From: a virus
IMG/VR virus record: IMGVR_UViG_3300007038_000014
Span: 1-23,248 of that record
Direction: 5' to 3' (one strand)
Length of the DNA stretch: 23,248 nt
Shown: positions 2,509-21,783 of the stretch, piece by piece
Numbering within the stretch: the stretch's first letter is position 1
Layout: every line of letters starts with the position of its first letter
The notes under the pieces: model-generated
Seen by the model: the letters and a program-made list of their open reading frames with translations, nothing else
Told to the model about the DNA's origin: nothing
Databases searched by the model: none
Program-made: the position numbers and the translations under genes

Positions 2509-5500
2509 TTACAAGTGGTGAAGGTTAGACTGTTGCTGTAAGACACTAATGCTGTAAATTTCTTGCTGGTCTGAGTTTTTAGCAAAAAACCTTGCTTTTA
2601 AGAAGTAGCCCCTTAGCTCATCTCCATCTATAAAAGATGGCTTTTCTGCAAAAATAAAGTCCCCTTGGTTTATGCCACTAGCGGTGCTTAGTGTTACATT
2701 GTCCTTGCCTATTGCAGTGATGCTGCCTATATTCTGGTCATTCCCATTGCTCACAAGGTCTCCTATATTCAAGCCTAATATATCGGTGTCTAAGCCTGAA
2801 ACGAATACCTGATTGCCTACCCGAGAACTCACAATACCCAAACCTATCGCTGCACTTGTCCCACTTATGTCCGTTGTCCTTGGTAAGTCAGCTCGCCAAA
2901 CGCCCTCTTTTTTCTTGAAAAGATCTTCAGAAAGCGTTGTGCTGTTTAAGTTAGTATTCAATGATACATCCCAACCCGCAGATGCTTCACTGTCGCTGTT
3001 TTCTGATGTTGCTAACCCAAGCGTTCTAAATCGCTTCACACTATTTCGGGGCTGGTTAAATATGGTCTCAAACGTAGCTACGGGAGATATGGGGTAACTA
3101 TTGCCTGAATTTAACTTAAACATTTGACCATCATTGAAATTGAAGACAGAGTAATTTATGTTGGTGAAATGTTCGGGAGTGAAAGAGTAAAAAGAAACCC
3201 ACCTATTTGCCTTGTAGTTATAGCCAAGAACAAACCCGTCGTAGTTTATACTGTTTCCAGCTAAAGATAAGTTACCACTACTTTGTGTTGTCGGAATAGT
3301 AACCTGCCCGCTTCCTAAGTTAACCGTGGCGTTTATTGTTACATTACCGCCAGAAGAAGGCATGTTTAGCTGCAAATTTTTAGTCCCACTTGTGAGTTTG
3401 CCCCCTCCGTACTTTACATTCCCTGTTCGCACCACGTTGTTCAGGCTTTGAGGAACGGTAGAGGGGTTAGAAAGAGGGTAAGTGTATCCACTCAAAGGAG
3501 CTTGTAAGTTAGATAGCTTTAAATTACCTGATTTAGAGTTCTGAGGCTTAGTCTTAAATACAAGGTTGCTGCCATTCGAGGATATACCAGGCACATAGCT
3601 ATTAGAAGAACCAACCGAACCAGAAACAATGTTATCAGCTCCTTTGCTCTTTGTGCCAAATAAAACCTTATCATTCTCCTTGTCAATGCCCACACTCATG
3701 TCAATAAAGTTATGGAAGGAGACAAGCTCTTTACTATCTTCGTCAAAGTGGCTTTGCACTTTGAACTCTGAAATGAGAGTGTGCCCTTGGCCGTTTATCT
3801 CCCACGCTTTGCCTCGCTTTATATCGTATCCATAGAACCTTCCATCAATGGCCGCAAACATGTCCTTGTTTGTAAGCCCATATCCCGCTGCGTAGTACCG
3901 CTCTTGGTTTATCACGTCATCGCTAAGGGTTAGACTATCTTGTTGGTCAGAAGTGCTTATGATGCGATTGTTTATAGGCACACGGGCAACGTCATTCTCC
4001 TGGAAAACCATAAGGAAGTTCCCATTATTCCATAATCGGTGAATGGGGCCGCTGTCAAAGGGGTATGCTTTAAAGTTTCCTTTGGCTATGTTAAAGGAGC
4101 TAAGGCCATTGAAGTCTACGTCTTGGAAGTATGGTTCGCTGTATGTTATGGCTGATCGCCGCTCCCGCTCTTGCGCTAATGGGTCGTAGGCGTTGGCTCT
4201 ACCTTTGCTCCATGCTTCATAAGGTATGAAGTCGCTAGCTTTTAAGTCGTAAACAGGGAACTCTTCAAAGGTTGCGTCAAAATTTATACCATCATTATTG
4301 TCATTTCGCATGGGGCGGAGCCTGTACCAAACGTCTCCTTGTTCAATAGTTCCAGCAGAACGTTTCTCAGTTAAAAAAATCTGATTAGCCCCTTGAAACG
4401 CTTTATTCACATAAACAAAACTAAAGTCACCAATTTTTATAATGTCAATGACAAAACTAAATCCCAAAAAATTATTGGAGGCATCTTTTGCCTCAATAAC
4501 ATCGCTTACAACAAATTTAGTGTCACCAGGCACTATGTATGCCTCATTTCCTTGACTAGAGGATATGCTATTCACAGAGTATGAAAGACTTTCACTTGAC
4601 TCCCTGAACTCGCTTTCAAACCGACCATTAACGACCTCCTTTAACCCCCCTATTTCATAGTAAACTTCGTCTCTTTCTAACCCAGCCCCGCGTGGGCGAA
4701 AAATCTCTACCACAACAAGACCACCACTATTATTCCATTTACTGTTTCCGCTAGATATGGCCGCTCTATCATATCCCTCGGCATCCCTATCTTGTACTTT
4801 TAATAAATATCCTGTGGTTTGAATTTTTGAGGCATCAGATGTGTCATCATAAATAGGGCTGTCTGTACCTTCATAAAATTGAGCTTCTAAAATCTCAAAA
4901 TCAAAGTTGTTTTCTGAAAAGAAAGTGTCACCATTGCCATCCATACTACCTATTACTCGGACAATATCACCTTTCGTGAAAGCCGGGTCAATGTCCGCAC
5001 CTGAGCTTTCAATATAGCTGTCTTCTTTCCCCGTTAAACTCCTAAGGTTTAAATAAAAAGCATTAGGGTCATTTGGTGTATTAGATGAATTAGCTTCATA
5101 AGCCCCGCATACGGTATAAGTTAAATGTTTGCTTTGCGATAAATTTTCTGTTATAGCAAAACTCCAAAACTTTGTTCGGGGTAAAGGAGTAACAGTATTC
5201 GCTATTCTGTAATCAATTTTTACCCGCCCTTTTTGGCGATTATTTGTGGGTATAACAGCGTCTTTAGGATAAGGTACAGAAATGTCACCACTTGGTATTT
5301 TCCGAATAGTAGAAGCCCTTATGGCTTCGTCGTACTCAATTATACCAAGCTTGTAACTACCACCAGGCTTTAAAGACTCACCTGTATCTACCCCTTTCAA
5401 TCTTGTGGCTTCCACAATGTCTAACTGAGGTGTGGAACCGCCTGAAGAAAAATTATAGATATGTTTTATTTTTACTACAATATTGTTTGTAGAATTGTAA

Positions 5501-6828
5501 GCATTTACATTTTCTATCTCTATTTGATTTATTTCAGTTGTTGTACTTATATCTGTTGCTAAAGCATTAACAATATCCGCATTAGAATCCCCATCCTTCA
5601 CAAGGTAACTAAAAGTCTCTCTCCAAATAACATTTGAAGCTAAAACTTCTTTTATGTTAAATCTAATAATGTCTCCTTTTTCATAGCTTAGTGATGGAAT
5701 ATCAATAATTATGGTATAGGTGTCTATATTGTCCGAAGCAGTATTTACAGGTATGTTTGTATTTGAAACCTTAGGTATCTCTACGTAAGTAGGTGTAATA
5801 TTTATATCTGAAGCATCCGCTTCTTCTATGCTTGGATTGGCATCATAACCATCCACGTAATTACCTATAAATAGCCTGTTAGATACAACGCGCAAGCTTT
5901 CTGCCTGAATAGGAACATTGTCAAAATACTTGTTTGTTTGCTCTGGGTTAGCAGCGGGGTAGCCACCCTCATTTTTAAAATCAAAAGTTATAGTAGAATC
6001 ATTAGTGTTGTTATTAATTTCCTTTATAACAAACCACTCTCCTTCATTCCCTAATCGTGCAATAACCTCTATTTTATCAAAAATACTACTCCCGGTAGGT
6101 ACGGTTATTTCTATATTATTAAATCTATTAACAAACCCAAACTCGCCTTTTTCTAATCGGCTTTTAACTAAAAAAGGAGGGTAAGCTAATTTTGATAGAT
6201 AACTATATGATGAGTAAGAACCATCTAACCCTAAATACCTACACCTAAACTGAAACACTTTTCCATCCAAGTCATTTCTGTTATAGTTTTTATCTGTGGT
6301 ATATTTAAAGCTGGGCGCTTGTGAAGGCTGATACCGTATGAGGCTTATCTTCTCCTGGTCTATCGTCCCATAGCCTCCATCTTTTGCCCGCTGCACATTT
6401 ATTTGCCGTATCGAGCTTAAATTGTCGGTGAAGAACAGCAATATCTCGTTATCCCCAAAACCCCTAACGGCATCACCTACCACGTTGCTGTACTCCGTGA
6501 AGTTTAGCTCGCTACTCTCCATCACTAGCTCGGTGACTTCGTACTGGTCGTTGTACTCGTATATGCGGTGATTCTGGTTAGAGTTGTAAATAAATATGTA
6601 GATGTTGTTGACCTGCTCCGACACTATTGTGTCTATGCACTTGTTGTCCCCAGAAGGCAGGGTGTAGTCTACCAGCACGGGGTCTTTGCTTTTCTCTAAA
6701 GCACCAATGTCGTCGTCATAAGACGTTGCGGTTTCAACGTTAATGGCATACCGCATGTCAGACGGTTTAAGCAGTCGCTCGTCGTCGTCTAAGTTTAGAA
6801 ATAATGGACGTGTTCTTGTTACCTGCAT
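2509..6828 (-). CDS. Muzzle / tail stabilisation protein (crAss-like, P22 gp10-type), 1439 aa
   Basis: A very long beta-rich protein that probably forms the distal tail tube or 'muzzle' of the podovirus tail. Features seen: an N-terminal region with a run of hydrophobic beta strands, F-F-T-D-N-L-S-S-I-R-Q-I-N-V at residues 132-145, and a F-x-F-R-x-R-Y-x-x-x-D-G-x-x-S-x-x-S segment near residues 193-210. In crAss-like stabilisation proteins I know similar 'FTDN..P..I' and 'YR..Y.DGE.S..S' patterns, and comparable length. Near residues 930-1060 and 1195-1230 there are short repeated strands (for example NRWVSFYSFTPEHF) that suggest a beta-propeller. Between them, about residues 1064-1193, lies an S/G/N/T-rich stretch that looks like an insertion. 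The gene follows the ring protein gene directly: the TAG stop of that gene touches this ATG in the same frame. Confidence 0.85.
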   Translation of the reverse strand: MQVTRTRPLFLNLDDDERLLKPSDMRYAINVETATSYDDDIGALEKSKDPVLVDYTLPSGDNKCIDTIVSEQVNNIYIFIYNSNQNHRIYEYNDQYEVTELVMESSELNFTEYSNVVGDAVRGFGDNEILLFFTDNLSSIRQINVQRAKDGGYGTIDQEKISLIRYQPSQAPSFKYTTDKNYNRNDLDGKVFQFRCRYLGLDGSYSSYSYLSKLAYPPFLVKSRLEKGEFGFVNRFNNIEITVPTGSSIFDKIEVIARLGNEGEWFVIKEINNNTNDSTITFDFKNEGGYPAANPEQTNKYFDNVPIQAESLRVVSNRLFIGNYVDGYDANPSIEEADASDINITPTYVEIPKVSNTNIPVNTASDNIDTYTIIIDIPSLSYEKGDIIRFNIKEVLASNVIWRETFSYLVKDGDSNADIVNALATDISTTTEINQIEIENVNAYNSTNNIVVKIKHIYNFSSGGSTPQLDIVEATRLKGVDTGESLKPGGSYKLGIIEYDEAIRASTIRKIPSGDISVPYPKDAVIPTNNRQKGRVKIDYRIANTVTPLPRTKFWSFAITENLSQSKHLTYTVCGAYEANSSNTPNDPNAFYLNLRSLTGKEDSYIESSGADIDPAFTKGDIVRVIGSMDGNGDTFFSENNFDFEILEAQFYEGTDSPIYDDTSDASKIQTTGYLLKVQDRDAEGYDRAAISSGNSKWNNSGGLVVVEIFRPRGAGLERDEVYYEIGGLKEVVNGRFESEFRESSESLSYSVNSISSSQGNEAYIVPGDTKFVVSDVIEAKDASNNFLGFSFVIDIIKIGDFSFVYVNKAFQGANQIFLTEKRSAGTIEQGDVWYRLRPMRNDNNDGINFDATFEEFPVYDLKASDFIPYEAWSKGRANAYDPLAQERERRSAITYSEPYFQDVDFNGLSSFNIAKGNFKAYPFDSGPIHRLWNNGNFLMVFQENDVARVPINNRIISTSDQQDSLTLSDDVINQERYYAAGYGLTNKDMFAAIDGRFYGYDIKRGKAWEINGQGHTLISEFKVQSHFDEDSKELVSFHNFIDMSVGIDKENDKVLFGTKSKGADNIVSGSVGSSNSYVPGISSNGSNLVFKTKPQNSKSGNLKLSNLQAPLSGYTYPLSNPSTVPQSLNNVVRTGNVKYGGGKLTSGTKNLQLNMPSSGGNVTINATVNLGSGQVTIPTTQSSGNLSLAGNSINYDGFVLGYNYKANRWVSFYSFTPEHFTNINYSVFNFNDGQMFKLNSGNSYPISPVATFETIFNQPRNSVKRFRTLGLATSENSDSEASAGWDVSLNTNLNSTTLSEDLFKKKEGVWRADLPRTTDISGTSAAIGLGIVSSRVGNQVFVSGLDTDILGLNIGDLVSNGNDQNIGSITAIGKDNVTLSTASGINQGDFIFAEKPSFIDGDELRGYFLKARFFAKNSDQQEIYSISVLQQQSNLHHL

Positions 6829-14924: not shown

Positions 14925-17351
14925 CTACTCTTGGGCGTTAGTCATGTTTTTTACCAACTCGCTAAACTTGTCTTCTTCGCCAATGTCATCTGGATTGGCT
15001 TCCTTTTGTTTGCCGTCCTTTATCTTTATCTTCTGCTCATCGGCTTCTAAGCCTGCCCGCTTCTCTAAGAGAACCCTGTCGTCTTTGGCCTTTTCTTTTA
15101 GCTTGTCGGCCTCTAAGCGGTTGCCCGTCTCCAGTTGTGAAATAGCGTATTTTTGGGTAAACTCTTGCTGGCTAAGTTGGCTTTTAAGGTTGTACTCCAT
15201 TTGTAGCTTTTGAAGCTCTGCCCTCGCTCTAATTTGCTCCTCTTGTATGTCGTACTGGCCACGAACACTTTCTTCAACTTTCTGCACGTTAGCTTTAGCC
15301 TGCTCTTCTTGCATTTTAAGCTGGCTCTGCTGCTGCTGAAGTTGCATTTGCTCTTGCTGGATTTCTTTCTGGCGCTTACTACGACGGAAGGACAAGTAGT
15401 CATAAGCCACGTTGGGGCTAAGACGCTCTGCTATCTCTCGTGCTTTAGCACCGTCTTCTATGGTGATTTCCTTTTGCGTTAGGCTGCGCTCTATGTCACG
15501 GTTTAAGTTGAGCTTTGTTTCGTTGTCTATTTTCATGTGAACGAAAACGCCTAACTGGCGCATGGTCATGTCTTCAAGGGTCTTTAGCATGTCCAGGTCA
15601 AAGTCACCAACCATCTCCGCATACTGATTGATTATCTTGCTATTGGCGGGTAGGCTTTGAGCTAGCCAGACGGTGCTTTGAATTACTCGCTTAGTGATGT
15701 CCTGAACACTACGGGAAATAAAACGTGTGGCATTTCGAGACGTGTCACGAGCAATCTCCATAGTACCTATGAGTTGCTTGTCTTGGATTTGCCCTTCACG
15801 TTGCGGAGGGAAACCTAATACCTCCCGTATCATCTGCATGTGAAAGTTGATGGCTCCAATGTAAGGCTCTATGGGTACGGCGTTATTAAAGGTGCGAACG
15901 GGGTCTTGTATTTGTTGTCCCTGCTCGTCAGTTCCTTTTTTGTAGATAATACCCGTAGCGTCGTAAATGTCTTGTAATTCTAAGGGGTCATACTCTTTCT
16001 CCCCTATAGAAAGCTCTGCCCAAGAGCTAATGTCAATGACCGTAACCTCGGGGTGGCTATTCATTAGCACTTGCTGCATTTTAAGCAATGCTTTGTCAAT
16101 AGCGTCCACGTTAGGAATGATATGTTCCAACATGGACTTCTGTGTATGGTTGTACTGGGAGGGTATGATGAGCTTGTACGGCAACTCTACGTCGTGCATA
16201 CTACCATGAGGACGTTCGAGGTTTTTCTTTTCACCGTAGTTGAATATATAATCAGTCTCCGCTATGTAGTACCCCGAAAGAACGCTTTCGTAGTAGTCTT
16301 TTTCTATCTTGTAGTTGTCGCTTTTGTACTCGTCTTTTTTGCGCTTAACTCTTTTCCCGTAAGGCCCTTTCTTAGTGGCTATCTTGTCCCAAAAAAAGGT
16401 TTTGTAGTGAAACTTAACAACGGGGATAGTCATGTCGTCAAACTCTCCGTCGTAGTAGAAAGGTTGCCCGTCTTTTTGAAAATGGCTGTTCCAGTCTATG
16501 TCAAGGTGGTCATTGCCGTAGCGACTATGGAACTTTTTGGCTAAGTCCCGAATGTCGTTGTCGCTCATGTTGGTGGTTTCTATCATAGATAGCACCTCAC
16601 CCAACGTGTAATACTTTAACTCAGCTCCCCACGGTATATTCTTACCAGTAGTGTCATTTGTTTCTCCGTAAACAAAATTCTCTACATCTACATATCGCTG
16701 AATAACACCCTTGCCGGGTACTAAATCAACTTCCGCGCAAGCTTTACCACTTTCTACTATATCTCTTGTTAAAAGGTAACGCACTTCCTCGGGGAAGTTG
16801 TTAAACTCTAATATAGCTTTCGTTATTTCGTAAGCGGCGTTCTCTACACTCGTTCGATAGTCAAGGGTCATAGCCATGCGAATGTCTTCCATGTCCTCTG
16901 GAATCATTTCGCTTTCTGGCACTTTAATGTCAAAAGTTTCCTCGAAGTTTTGAATAAACTCCTTGTCCTGTAAGTTGGCTATGAGTTCATCTTTTACCGA
17001 TGCTTTTTCGCTTTTTGATAGCTTGTCAACAGCGTCAATCTCGTAGCTAAACTCTCCAAACTCGTCTTCTGTTATGGCTCGCACAAACTTAGGAGCAATG
17101 GGCGCGGGAGTAAAGTCCAGATTTACGTGAGAGTTGTCACCCGTGGCATTGAAGGCTTGCATGAGGCCCTCTGTACTTTGGTTTCCTTGCGCATAGGCGC
17201 GGCACATTTGTATGCGGTCACGTTCCGCTGAAAAACGAGAAGTGGTTTTATATCCAAAACCCTTTTCCTGGATATACCTACCAATCTTAACCCCGTAATC
17301 GGAGCTTAGTTTTTCTCTCTTTGTCACTAATGGGTCTGGTTTACCTGCCAT
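14925..17351 (-). CDS. Portal protein, 808 aa
   Basis: Forms the dodecameric channel at one vertex through which DNA is packaged and leaves. At residues 53-58 'YAQGNQ' follows an Arg-rich helix, as in many portals (Y-x-x-G-x-Q), and 'APKFVRAITEDEFGE' follows near 87-100. A middle region near residue 510 has 'LGFPPQREGQ', then a long helix (about 525-565) that would line the channel. Residues about 660-775 form a Gln/Glu/Lys/Arg coiled coil, so the C-terminal tail is very long. Total length is longer than classic portals (400-700) but similar to crAss-like portals. The gene follows terminase by 51 bases, with a promoter box in that gap. It ends in TAG. No fusion or frameshift is seen. Confidence 0.85.
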   Translation of the reverse strand: MAGKPDPLVTKREKLSSDYGVKIGRYIQEKGFGYKTTSRFSAERDRIQMCRAYAQGNQSTEGLMQAFNATGDNSHVNLDFTPAPIAPKFVRAITEDEFGEFSYEIDAVDKLSKSEKASVKDELIANLQDKEFIQNFEETFDIKVPESEMIPEDMEDIRMAMTLDYRTSVENAAYEITKAILEFNNFPEEVRYLLTRDIVESGKACAEVDLVPGKGVIQRYVDVENFVYGETNDTTGKNIPWGAELKYYTLGEVLSMIETTNMSDNDIRDLAKKFHSRYGNDHLDIDWNSHFQKDGQPFYYDGEFDDMTIPVVKFHYKTFFWDKIATKKGPYGKRVKRKKDEYKSDNYKIEKDYYESVLSGYYIAETDYIFNYGEKKNLERPHGSMHDVELPYKLIIPSQYNHTQKSMLEHIIPNVDAIDKALLKMQQVLMNSHPEVTVIDISSWAELSIGEKEYDPLELQDIYDATGIIYKKGTDEQGQQIQDPVRTFNNAVPIEPYIGAINFHMQMIREVLGFPPQREGQIQDKQLIGTMEIARDTSRNATRFISRSVQDITKRVIQSTVWLAQSLPANSKIINQYAEMVGDFDLDMLKTLEDMTMRQLGVFVHMKIDNETKLNLNRDIERSLTQKEITIEDGAKAREIAERLSPNVAYDYLSFRRSKRQKEIQQEQMQLQQQQSQLKMQEEQAKANVQKVEESVRGQYDIQEEQIRARAELQKLQMEYNLKSQLSQQEFTQKYAISQLETGNRLEADKLKEKAKDDRVLLEKRAGLEADEQKIKIKDGKQKEANPDDIGEEDKFSELVKNMTNAQE

Positions 17352-17402: not shown

Positions 17403-20036
17403 TTATTTTTTTCGCCAATCTACGGGTATTGTTTTGTTACCTTGTCGCTTGTATGTTCTTACGGGAGGACGTTGTAGTTTTACTTTTTGTTCCGCTTTCT
17501 TTTTAACGGGTGCTTTGGCTGCGGCAAGGGCAAATCCAGAGGATATAGAGGCGTCATACTTTGTTCTGTTGGACGGTTCAAATTGCTTCCAGTCCTCAAG
17601 GGTTCTTTCAAAAAGGATTTTTTCCTGCATATTGTTTTCTTCGTCATAGCCTACATACTGACTAGTGTACGCTTGCAAAGCGTAGTAAATTGATGTGTTT
17701 AGCTTTGCCCTACTGTTTGCCCCTTTTTGCCTTTTCCTTTGGTTTGTGTTACTCTTATATCCTTCTGGGCAGTCCATTAAAAACTCCCATTTACCCGCTC
17801 TCTGAAAGTGGCCTTCAATTTCGTTTTTGTCTCGTTCGTGAAATATCGGCATACCTAAAAACTCTGCCGCCATTAAAGCATCATCAAAGAATATCTCTAT
17901 TTCTTCTGGGCGATGTATATATTCCATTATAAATTTGTTGGAAACACTGGGGTAAAGCGCGTTTTCTTTTCCAACGAAATGAATAGAGCCTTTTGATCCT
18001 CTCCCGTCCGAAGTTTGACTTGTGCCATAAGGGTCAAGGCCACCTACTCCAAGCCAGTCATTACCTGGGCCTTCTTGCCCGTAAACTCTTTTCTTTTTGT
18101 TTTGAAGTTCTTTTGGGGGAAACCACGAAAAGACAAACTTTCCATTTTCGTCTGGTGCAAACTCTACAGGGTCGTCGGGGTTTCCGTTTTTCCTGTATAA
18201 GTTTCCCCGTGTTACTTTCGAGTTGTTGTCATTGCTTTTTCTGAACCCAAAGAGATAATTCATTTGGTCGGCAATGTTCTCCACATTTAAAGAGCTATTC
18301 GCGTTAGAACTTCTTAGCGCATGTTCAATAGTCATGGGGTGGTTGCGGAGGTAGTTGTATAAAACGTCTTGGCCTTCTCGCTTCTTGCTTTGAATTACAC
18401 TTTCGTAATATTTTACCGCCCCTACCTTTATAGGTTCACCCGTTGATGCGCATACCGTCCCTTTTGGGGGTTTTTCCTTATGGCAAACACCATACTTATC
18501 GGTGTGTATTCTTGAGTTCTCTTGTATAGGCATAAAATACCTGTACAGCCCCGTATCAGTTCTACCTGTTATTTCGTTACGCTCATTGGGGTCACTGGAC
18601 TTCCATAAAGGGGAGGCAGCCTCTCCACCTTCTCCCTCGTCTCCCACGGTGGAACCCAACCATGCCTTACCAACTATATAGCCGTTCTCGTCCATTGTTG
18701 GTGATACCATATCCCAATGAATTAAGAAGTTCTTACCCGCTCCCCACTTTAAGTTCTCATCAGCAAGGTAGTCATTAAGTTTAACCCCGTCGTAAGCGCC
18801 TTCGGTTGTTGTCCTTATGTCACTTATAGTGTTAAGGTAGTCGCTAAGGTCATTTTCTTTTTCTTTCTTTGCTTTCTTAGACGCGTTGGAGGGCTTACTG
18901 AACTCTATGCCTACGTTACTGTCTTCCCTCCCCTTTACCACGGGCTTAAAAAAGAAGGGCAAATTGCCAAAGGCATATTGCTTCTTTTTAAAAGCAGCCT
19001 TTACGTCCGTCTCTGTTTTGGAGGTCATGCCACTGTTGAAGTGGGAGGTCATGGTTTCAAGGTTCAGCTTTCTGGCAAGCTTTTCTAAAGTAAACCCCGT
19101 ACGCCTTGATTTCACAAAATACTGCCCTAAACACCTTTTGTCTACCTCACATGCCTTAGTGTGGTAGGATAGCTTGCACTGTGCATACCTGAAGTTGGAA
19201 TACTCTCCGCTGTCCACGTCTTTGTACCATTGTAGCCAGAAGTACATGTGCCCCGTTAAGTACACGGGGTAGCCATTATTCATAAACCAAACGCCATAAA
19301 CTCTGCGCCTGTACTCTTCTTTTATGTAATCGGCAAATGCCTCTTCGTTGTCTTTTGTGCAGCCTTTAGGCACTGGGGTGCGTCGCCAATACTGCTCTTT
19401 CACAGGCTTGTCAGAAAACAGCATTTCTTTTTTTGGGGGTTGTTGGGGTAGTTGCACCCTAAGCCCTTGAAGTTCTATTATGTCCCCCTCCGTTCCGTCT
19501 GGGCATATCTTTATGGCGTCCTCTTTAGAGTTGTACCAGTCTTTGTGCAGCTTTGAGGTGTCTATGACTTCACCACGGGCAAACCGCTCTGGGTAGCCTA
19601 TCTTAAACTCTTTGTCCTTCAGGTTTATTTCCTCGCTTTCTATCATTGATTCTAACTCAATGATGTAGCTATTGAGGTTCATTATACTTTCAAGAATGAA
19701 GGGCTTGGCACTTGCTATGTCTGCGTGTTTGTACTGATCAAGGTCTTCGTAATCAAACTCCTTAGACAAGGCCGCTCGCATCATGGTCATTGCGTTGTTA
19801 CCGCCTTTTATAAAGCGCTTAACATACCTAACGATGGTTTTTTCCGCAGGTGCATTAGGGCTGTCCATCCAGCGCTGCAAAATGGCTTTACCGCTGTTAA
19901 AGCTATCCACCTTGCCCTTCACAACTTTTTTGAGTTCTGATGGCTCTATGCCATCTAAGATTATTTCGTATTCTAAGTTGTTTATAAGGTCATCAACAGA
20001 CGCTTTTATGTCCTTAGATAGCCCTTCTATTGCCAT
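17403..20036 (-). CDS. terL: Terminase large subunit (packaging ATPase and nuclease), 877 aa
   Basis: Packages DNA into the empty head. ATPase: an atypical Walker A, VKSRRTGFT (about residues 308-316), and Walker B NDYLADE (421-427). Nuclease, RNase H-like: Asp668 in G-V-G-G-L-D-P, then the second acidic motif in 'FFDDALMAAEFLGMP' (717-730), with a candidate third site in the C-terminal region. Residues 511-529 contain H, C, H and C (for example C518, H519 and C529), which could bind zinc. The usual length is 450-700; this protein has about 300 extra residues before the ATPase, helical and charged in the first 130. No separate small terminase was recognised. It starts with a TAATG overlap at the stop of the GroES-like gene, so the two are co-translated. 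Its C-terminus is Lys/Arg-rich (ends W-R-K-K). Confidence 0.88.
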   Translation of the reverse strand: MAIEGLSKDIKASVDDLINNLEYEIILDGIEPSELKKVVKGKVDSFNSGKAILQRWMDSPNAPAEKTIVRYVKRFIKGGNNAMTMMRAALSKEFDYEDLDQYKHADIASAKPFILESIMNLNSYIIELESMIESEEINLKDKEFKIGYPERFARGEVIDTSKLHKDWYNSKEDAIKICPDGTEGDIIELQGLRVQLPQQPPKKEMLFSDKPVKEQYWRRTPVPKGCTKDNEEAFADYIKEEYRRRVYGVWFMNNGYPVYLTGHMYFWLQWYKDVDSGEYSNFRYAQCKLSYHTKACEVDKRCLGQYFVKSRRTGFTLEKLARKLNLETMTSHFNSGMTSKTETDVKAAFKKKQYAFGNLPFFFKPVVKGREDSNVGIEFSKPSNASKKAKKEKENDLSDYLNTISDIRTTTEGAYDGVKLNDYLADENLKWGAGKNFLIHWDMVSPTMDENGYIVGKAWLGSTVGDEGEGGEAASPLWKSSDPNERNEITGRTDTGLYRYFMPIQENSRIHTDKYGVCHKEKPPKGTVCASTGEPIKVGAVKYYESVIQSKKREGQDVLYNYLRNHPMTIEHALRSSNANSSLNVENIADQMNYLFGFRKSNDNNSKVTRGNLYRKNGNPDDPVEFAPDENGKFVFSWFPPKELQNKKKRVYGQEGPGNDWLGVGGLDPYGTSQTSDGRGSKGSIHFVGKENALYPSVSNKFIMEYIHRPEEIEIFFDDALMAAEFLGMPIFHERDKNEIEGHFQRAGKWEFLMDCPEGYKSNTNQRKRQKGANSRAKLNTSIYYALQAYTSQYVGYDEENNMQEKILFERTLEDWKQFEPSNRTKYDASISSGFALAAAKAPVKKKAEQKVKLQRPPVRTYKRQGNKTIPVDWRKK

Positions 20037-20689
20037 TACGCCATTTCCACCTTTTTAGAAACTATGTGGTCTGCCATTATGCGAATGAACTTAGCTCCTT
20101 CTATTTCTTGCTCAACGCCGATCTGGGGGCGGTAGTAAATCTCATCGCCAACCTCAAAGTCATGGTCAAGTATGTCCTGCCTGTTGGCAAAAACTACCTT
20201 ACCGGCTTCTTTCTTGGGCTTTTGCTCCCCGCTGGCGTAAAAGTGGTCGTCTATGTTTTCTACGAGTACAAGGCCGCTTTTGCTTTTGTTTACCTCTTCG
20301 TAAACCTCTTGCAAAAACACATGACCACGAAAAGGAACGAACTTACCTTCGTTTACGTAGCCGTAGCACATACTCGCACCTGGGTCTTTTTCGTTGAAGG
20401 GAACTTTGAAGTACCCTGGGTAAATCTCTTGGTCGTTGTTGGCAAGGCTGTTGGTTACTCGAAAGTTGAATATCAAGTACCCTCCAACGGCTTCCTCGAA
20501 TCCTTCTGGTGCTGCTACAATCTCCGCTTCTTTGTAAGTGTTGTGAGCATCGTTCCATGTGGCGGGATAGTGCAACAGCTCGCCGTCATGCCCCTTGATG
20601 TCTAAGGTCTCTTTATGTCGGCTTTTGCTAAACACAATAAAGTGGCCTACGCCTTTTTTAAACTTGTCGTGGTGTTCTGGTTTGTTCAT
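20036..20689 (-). CDS. Probable tandem GroES-like co-chaperonin, 217 aa
   Basis: Residues 121-212 line up with GroES: 'RGHVFLQEV' (like 'DRVLVKRL'), acidic residues, then KSKSGLVLV (residues 135-143), matching the mobile loop with its S/G-G-[IL]-V-L motif that grips the chaperonin ring, then G-K-V-V (163-166), E-V-G-D-E-I-Y-Y (179-186), and A-K-F-I-R-I-M-A-D-H-I-V (199-210). Residues 14-129 show a second, weaker copy: G-H-F-I-V-F, E-I-V-A-A-P (56-61), V-G-G-Y-L-I-F-N-F (68-76), and a final S-M-C-Y...R-G-H-V strand shared with the second copy. Phages T4 (gp31) and RB49 (CocO) are known to encode single GroES-like proteins for capsid folding, so a head-protein role is plausible. The first copy lacks a clear I-V-L loop. 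It lies directly before terL with overlapping stop and start. An unrelated beta-barrel protein is an alternative. Confidence 0.65.
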   Translation of the reverse strand: MNKPEHHDKFKKGVGHFIVFSKSRHKETLDIKGHDGELLHYPATWNDAHNTYKEAEIVAAPEGFEEAVGGYLIFNFRVTNSLANNDQEIYPGYFKVPFNEKDPGASMCYGYVNEGKFVPFRGHVFLQEVYEEVNKSKSGLVLVENIDDHFYASGEQKPKKEAGKVVFANRQDILDHDFEVGDEIYYRPQIGVEQEIEGAKFIRIMADHIVSKKVEMA

Positions 20690-20691
20690 CG

Positions 20692-21783
20692 CTAATTATT
20701 AAATAAATATGGATATACTTCTCTGCACTCTCCGTAACTGTGAAATACAAAGCCCCTTTGCCCTTTCTTGTAGTTTGTTTGCACGTACTCACTGGAAGGG
20801 CTTAATGCTGGGTAGCAAAAGTAGTCGAAGTGCTGACTGGTAGCATAGTCAAATATGTATTGATGGGTGTCGCCTTTGCTTACTTCTATCACTTTGTTCG
20901 GAGAAATAAGGTCTTGCTCTATAAGCCAGTTTTTAATCTTTTCTTCATTGGCTGCATCTAACTTAGCAGGCATGGGGCGCTTGTTGTGTTTTGTATCTTT
21001 ACCGTGCATGATGGGAATTATAATTCTTCCCATTTCATAGTAGTCTATAATGTTGGTGTAGTTATACACCTCCACGTTAGCAAGCATTATTTCTGCGGTT
21101 ACTTTTACTGCTTGGTTTACCACGTAGTCAAAGTCCCCTCCATGGTTAGAGTTACACACGTTGTTGGATATAACCTTGTCGTAAAAAGGAGCTAACAGAA
21201 GCAACAAGTTGGTCTTGAAAAGAACCCCTTGGTCATAGGCTTCTTGGTTACTCATGTTCTGGGGTAGTTCGTGGCCGCCTCTAGTTGTGTAACCGTTCCA
21301 CCCGTCCATGAAGTCGCCTAAGTCGTCTATAACAAGGGTGTCGCTCTTACGGTACTTTAACACCCAACGCACCATTTCATTTAAAGTGTCGTGAAGGTCT
21401 TCGATATTCCAGGTAGTAGGGTACATGGCTGCACCGTCTTTATTAGGCTCCATGCCTATGTGGGTGTCTGTGTACACAAGCCTGTCAAAAGAATTGGTCT
21501 TTTCCTTGGGCTTGCTGGGTATTTTTACTTTTTTTACCTTTTTTTCAAGACCTTCAAAAACACTTTCAAAGTCTAAGTCTTCTTTCTGCTTGCTTTCGGC
21601 TAAAGGATTGGTAAAACGAAGAGAGTGCTTAGAGGACTTTAGCCAACCGTCTTGAACATGCTTTAAGTCTACGCCAGCCTCATTGACTGCTTGTATTACT
21701 CCCTCGTTTTCGTTTCTGAACTTCTTGACAACTCCCCATTCGGTGGGGGTTAATCTTTTGCGAATCTCGCGTTTTTCCGCCAT
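20692..21783 (-). CDS. Calcineurin-like metallophosphoesterase with N-terminal helical region, 363 aa
   Basis: Two-metal phosphoesterase core: D106-T-H108 (motif I), G156-D157-x-x-D160 (motif II), N213-H214 (motif III, in S-N-H where G-N-H is usual), H260 (M-H-G-K-D), and G304-D-T-H307 where G-H-x-H is usual. The last motif has Asp305 in place of the first His. The N-terminal 60 residues (start with 'LTPTEWGVVKKFRNENEG') look like a helix-turn-helix followed by 'DGWLKSSKHSLRF', so they may bind DNA or a partner. This family includes SbcD/Mre11-like nucleases and many phage enzymes of unknown substrate. Its place between lysis and packaging genes does not identify the substrate. TAG stop is two bases before the next ATG. 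Confidence 0.8.
   Translation of the reverse strand: MAEKREIRKRLTPTEWGVVKKFRNENEGVIQAVNEAGVDLKHVQDGWLKSSKHSLRFTNPLAESKQKEDLDFESVFEGLEKKVKKVKIPSKPKEKTNSFDRLVYTDTHIGMEPNKDGAAMYPTTWNIEDLHDTLNEMVRWVLKYRKSDTLVIDDLGDFMDGWNGYTTRGGHELPQNMSNQEAYDQGVLFKTNLLLLLAPFYDKVISNNVCNSNHGGDFDYVVNQAVKVTAEIMLANVEVYNYTNIIDYYEMGRIIIPIMHGKDTKHNKRPMPAKLDAANEEKIKNWLIEQDLISPNKVIEVSKGDTHQYIFDYATSQHFDYFCYPALSPSSEYVQTNYKKGQRGFVFHSYGECREVYPYLFNN

Follow-up and report, generated by a model that had tools for sequence, protein, structure and literature searches.

A tandem GroES-family protein encoded beside the large terminase gene in a marine bacteriophage fragment and its relatives

Does the gene directly upstream of the terminase large subunit gene (terL) in a marine bacteriophage encode a doubled GroES, and which role could such a protein undertake? 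The question arose from the window analyzed here, a 23,248-base IMG/VR virus record classed as linear, which is probably a fragment of a phage genome. A preliminary description of this DNA had proposed two GroES domains fused in tandem and coupled to terL, without giving a strand. The open reading frame was found on the minus strand (Table 1), and the GroES landmarks quoted for it were all present, including SGLVL at residues 138-142. The coupling was also borne out, as the TAA stop codon of the gene shares 1 base with the ATG of terL (gcgTAATGgca), giving a 1-nt overlap at the TAATG junction. Both genes belong to a collinear late cluster running from endolysin, holin and a phosphoesterase-like protein through the tandem GroES, terL and portal genes to more virion proteins. 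The product of the gene just upstream of the tandem GroES (20692-21783) resembled the phage DNA-repair exonuclease family phrog_704 as well as a calcineurin-like phosphoesterase of Cellulophaga phages, and is an odd neighbor for a late cluster.

Table 1. Coordinates of the features discussed, in the window unless another record is named.
Feature	Position	Strand	Size or basis
Tandem GroES-type co-chaperonin gene	20036..20689	(-)	217 aa, ATG to TAA
N-terminal domain, residues 14-116, very probably a divergent GroES fold	20342..20650	(-)	hhalign, model, VIA-align
Loop of N-terminal domain, residues 24-44, holding ETLDIKGHDGELLH	20558..20620	(-)	Model secondary structure
C-terminal GroES domain, residues 117-212	20054..20341	(-)	Pfam Cpn10, hhalign, VIA-align
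Predicted disordered mobile loop, residues 134-156	20222..20290	(-)	pLDDT, motif table
Terminase large subunit (TerL), 877 aa	17403..20036	(-)	phrog_6681, E 7.5e-119
N-terminal helical extension of TerL, residues about 48-158	19563..19895	(-)	hhalign probability 91.9% (against the ~95-aa ORF of relatives)
Portal protein, operon neighbor	14925..17351	(-)	phrog_6547, E 1.6e-100
Phage GroEL with GroES adjacent or near, genome also with tandem GroES	NC_055852 25450-27263
Phage GroEL with GroES adjacent or near, genome also with tandem GroES	NC_021796 2251-4374
Phage GroEL with GroES adjacent or near, genome also with tandem GroES	MW202828 40671-42561

Profile searches placed the protein in the GroES family. 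Pfam Cpn10 (PF00166) scored 24.6 bits (E 2.7e-5) over residues 117-211, above its cut-off of 21.1, and PHROG 13932, a 200-aa profile named 'co-chaperonin GroES', matched residues 12-209 (E 1.7e-8). The NCBIfam GroES equivalog gave 19.1 bits against a cut-off of 128, the 217-aa protein not being of single-domain length. When the window protein itself was compared with phage records by BLAST, no match emerged, and relatives were therefore gathered through TerL. The variability of their aligned GroES sequences precluded a pattern scan; individually, 47 of the 61 aligned family members matched Cpn10. With the window protein left out of its construction, a family profile recovered that protein across both halves (residues 14-212) at 42.4 bits, and none of 200 shuffles exceeded 7.4 bits. 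The AlphaFold2 model, a monomer like the other AlphaFold models used here, had a pLDDT of 82.8 and a pTM of 0.77 and consisted chiefly of short β-strands arranged in two halves. Its best viral structure match was phi18:3 cpn10 (E 1.8e-13). Among solved structures, the top match to the whole model was 7ekq_R, the Cpn20 of Chlamydomonas, which superposed 163 residues within the 8-214 span of the model (Z 9.4, rmsd 4.2) and agrees with the likeness to Cpn20 drawn in the preliminary description; the next PDB matches were single GroES proteins covering the C-half. With Pfam, PHROG, hhalign and structural matches in agreement, the product is a GroES-family protein carrying two GroES-fold domains in tandem. 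The 7ekq_R chain belongs to a complex in which Cpn11/20/23 cap the chloroplast ClpP of Chlamydomonas (PMC8889267), and its rank as the top whole-length match would suit a ClpP-capping factor; 7ekq may merely be the tandem Cpn20 structure at hand, and we give this function hardly any credence.

The two halves were examined separately for a different fold, which the preliminary description had named as the result that would speak against it; the C-half proved firmly and the N-half moderately GroES. The C-terminal domain is certainly a GroES domain: hhalign of the family's C-halves against bacterial GroES reached 98.4%, and VIA-align superposed this half (about residues 115-215) on many single-domain GroES chains with Z 7.3-9.3. 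Bacterial GroES shares its fold, mobile loop and family profile, and is half as long as the window protein. The GroES-like SGLVL (20264-20278) lies inside the loop of this domain, and model pLDDT fell below 50 at residues 134-136 and 139-156, a low confidence that fits a mobile loop. In a close relative (L003), SGLIL replaces SGLVL, and a dN/dS of about 0.15 between the two proteins over the C-half indicates, at the level of sequence, that the tandem GroES is under purifying selection.

The N-half is the more divergent. The 61 N-halves aligned to bacterial GroES with an hhalign probability of 78%, collinearly across the whole of GroES, and the controls stayed far below (at most 0.34% in 20 column shuffles, 0.11% for the reversed profile). 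Modelled alone, this half reached a pLDDT of 80. VIA-align on Foldseek candidates placed Cpn10/GroES chains in all of the top 11 rows (Z 4.5-6.0), one of them a Cpn20 chain, and the rows below were mainly oxidoreductases of GroES-like fold (Z 3.8 and below); because these Z values are modest, we take the superposition as support short of proof. Could GroES be limited to the C-half, with an unrelated beta-rich domain in front of it? Pfam and PDB sequence profiles matched the C-half only, none of them the N-half, and Foldseek against the PDB with the N-half model alone gave no match at E below 1, both as such an arrangement would predict. It is contradicted by the hhalign result with its clean controls, by the 11 best structural rows, by the span of the 7ekq_R alignment over nearly both halves of the model and by the GroES-like N-loops of relatives (KTESGLEL, SNGLIL), and we consider it improbable. 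The weaker first copy that had been proposed is thus supported by hhalign and VIA-align together, and the N-half is very probably a divergent GroES domain. The profiles of the two halves matched each other weakly (hhalign probability 5.7%), and we therefore do not claim a recent internal duplication.

The loop of the N-terminal domain occupies the place of the GroES mobile loop in sequence order and was modelled as two short strands. In relatives it reads KTESGLEL (phi18:3), SNNSSNGLIL (elemoA) or TKEIGGIEFIV. A loop with the hydrophobic tripeptide (NKSKSGLVLVEN) was found in the C-domain only of the window protein. The proposal that a clear gripping loop is confined to the second copy therefore describes the window protein and does not extend to the family, several relatives having the clear loop in their first copy.

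The integration of TerL-based sampling with gene order enabled an analysis of this neighborhood across relatives, the loci being picked by TerL alone, with GroES playing no part in the choice. The tandem gene lay at most 1.5 kb from terL in 106 of the 108 loci having at least 900 bases upstream, and, in a wider set, upstream of terL within 3.2 kb in 155 of 165 loci; some of the misses in the latter had little upstream sequence, and Gundel_1 was without a tandem GroES gene. Members in cultured and named phages (phi18:3 gp096, phi13:2 gp096, phi38:1 gp089 and elemoA gp33, with PHROG 13932) belong to the same family, measure 180-200 aa and share 16-21% identity with the window protein, their loops varying by lineage; they are labelled plain GroES or cpn10, with the RefSeq name 'co-chaperonin GroES' in Elemovirus, phi38:1, phi13:2 and phi18:3. 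Hence, of the preliminary interpretation, the tandem build, the likeness to Cpn20 and the position beside terL stand, and the suggestion that such a gene would be unusual for phages falls, the same gene being present upstream of terL in nearly all relatives examined. Its GroES annotation in related phages is already known. The RefSeq and PHROGs labels do not mention the tandem build, and in open-licence papers we found no description of the tandem build or of a three-part chaperonin set, none of C-loop shortening with a phage GroEL and no biochemistry on any family member. The double build, and its pairing with a phage-made GroEL in some relatives, seem to have gone unremarked so far.

This pairing was seen in the complete relatives Elemovirus (elemoA), phi38:1 and ctfjg026, which combine a phage GroEL, an adjoining or nearby single-domain GroES and the tandem GroES by terL. 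GroEL and single GroES also occurred together in four IMG/VR records (G006, G007, G012, G017) and two MAG contigs (those of L116 and L096). A second, single-domain GroES elsewhere in the genome was frequent among relatives, and most of the aligned copies had a canonical loop; Pachyviridae had a single GroES and no GroEL. The tandem gene stood alone in ten contigs of 48-72 kb, where the absence of the other two is unproven because IMG/VR contigs may be incomplete; it was also the only co-chaperonin gene seen in the 23-kb window fragment. The length of the C-loop segment was bimodal, with 14-23 residues in 66 of 152 members (about 40%) and 26-37 in the other 86, the E. coli GroES segment having 29 residues when counted by eye. 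A C-loop of 14-23 residues makes it unlikely that the C-domain grips GroEL in those relatives. Among long records, a phage GroEL was present in 7/7 with a short C-loop vs 2/17 with a long one (Fisher p 1e-4, ignoring kinship). Only two changes of loop state are needed on the TerL tree, and very few independent events therefore lie behind this pattern. In the window protein, whose lineage stands apart on a long branch, the C-loop is canonical and of the long class, its segment counting 37 residues. By the loop pattern, the window phage is weakly predicted to lack its own GroEL and single GroES.

The almost invariant position directly upstream of terL, the terL overlap in the window's lineage and the short C-loop of many relatives would also suit a GroES fold repurposed as a packaging or assembly partner of TerL or portal, such as a ring adaptor or a small-terminase-like factor, instead of a GroEL lid. 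Sequence comparison pointed to another candidate for the small terminase. Most relatives have a separate helical-looking ORF of ~95 aa between the tandem GroES and terL (e.g., L006:3679-3963), often ending in GFAERxSK. The N-terminal extension of the window's TerL appears homologous to it, so that this ORF was fused or split in the window's lineage, and it may be a better small-terminase candidate than the tandem GroES. A GroES-like loop is moreover kept in one or the other domain in many lineages, and phi18:3 gp096 is absent from the genes marked as MS/MS virion proteins, among which portal and others are marked. The repurposed fold is accordingly unlikely in our judgment. The lack of a virion mark on gp096 fits a non-virion chaperone and, together with the terL-side location, a morphogenesis chaperone. 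A mis-annotated structural gene was considered too and was lowered in rank, given that the phi18:3 proteomics mark the neighbors and not gp096.

We therefore regard the window gene as probably encoding a tandem, Cpn20-like phage co-chaperonin that docks as a lid on GroEL for late phage proteins. The two GroES barrels of each chain would form the lid, either alone or mixed with a single-domain GroES of the host or phage, and the SGLVL mobile loop of the C-domain would dock on the GroEL apical domains, closing the folding cage. Likely clients would be late phage proteins, above all the major capsid protein, TerL and portal. Where a relative encodes both a GroEL and a single-domain GroES, its tandem subunit is probably matched to the phage GroEL, and host GroEL would be the working partner in relatives that encode neither. 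The enlarged GroEL cage suggested in the preliminary description is unsupported, nothing in the sequence pointing there. Ring formation, stoichiometry and mixed rings are equally part of this model, and an even number of domains per chain mismatches a seven-fold ring unless a partner or a gap makes up the difference. T4 gp31 and RB49 CocO are, like the window protein, phage-encoded GroES analogues; both are single-domain, and neither gene is known to lie beside terL. For T4 gp31, host GroEL is the partner and the capsid protein the substrate (PMC5780408).

The even-numbered lid, which could mismatch the seven-fold ring, might instead mark a decoy or modulator that occupies host GroEL or unbalances GroES rings, thereby redirecting or blocking host folding. 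Tandem-only phages indeed retain a full-length C-loop, which in several of them includes a canonical SGI motif expected to bind host GroEL. However, the gene has terL and portal as neighbors, both here and in relatives, and phages themselves often need GroEL. Chloroplast and Plasmodium Cpn20 share this mismatch and function as co-chaperonins (PMC3542282, PMC5780408), and we hold a decoy to be slightly more improbable still than a GroES confined to the C-half. In chloroplasts, Cpn20 works with single-domain Cpn10 in active mixed oligomers and the symmetry mismatch of the tandem lid is tolerated (PMC4242682, PMC5780408). The Cpn20 of chloroplast and apicoplast has two GroES domains head to tail like the window protein; 7ekq_R shares 14-16% identity with it over aligned residues and the hosts differ, and the phage tandem GroES probably has a separate origin. 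Tentatively, and with less than even confidence, we suggest that phages evolved a Cpn60/Cpn10/Cpn20-style system with mixed lids independently of chloroplasts, in which the grip domain is swapped according to the presence of an own GroEL and the clients are packaging or capsid proteins.

Until now, tandem co-chaperonins have been regarded as peculiar to plastids and as a symmetry puzzle, an even lid on a seven-fold cage. The phage tandem GroES, reached from a marine bacteriophage window, adds a second and very widespread case. It also suggests that assembly in a widely distributed group of aquatic phages includes a conserved folding step. The group has cultured members (phi18:3, phi38:1, Elemovirus), some of them encoding the complete three-part set within about 60-73 kb of genome, and offers a small system in which to test for mixed rings.

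The TerL of the window forms a long and unsure branch in the TerL tree, for which reason the window phage is given no named genus. A 1439-aa protein (2509-6828) carries a crAss-type muzzle C-terminal domain (Pfam PF25729, E 2.8e-6), which by sequence ties the window's phage group to crAss-like tail modules. In two relatives (L126 and L119), tandem GroES and terL lie within larger Flavobacteriaceae contigs (106.8 kb and 451.6 kb), and some members may therefore be prophages; a single-domain GroES is also encoded on the L126 contig, about 11 kb away. The contigs of L093-L095, L098, L101, L104, L108 and L110 were binned in Woesearchaeota, Euryarchaeota and Aliivibrio MAGs, and the placement of these contigs of the phage group most likely reflects binning errors, not hosts.
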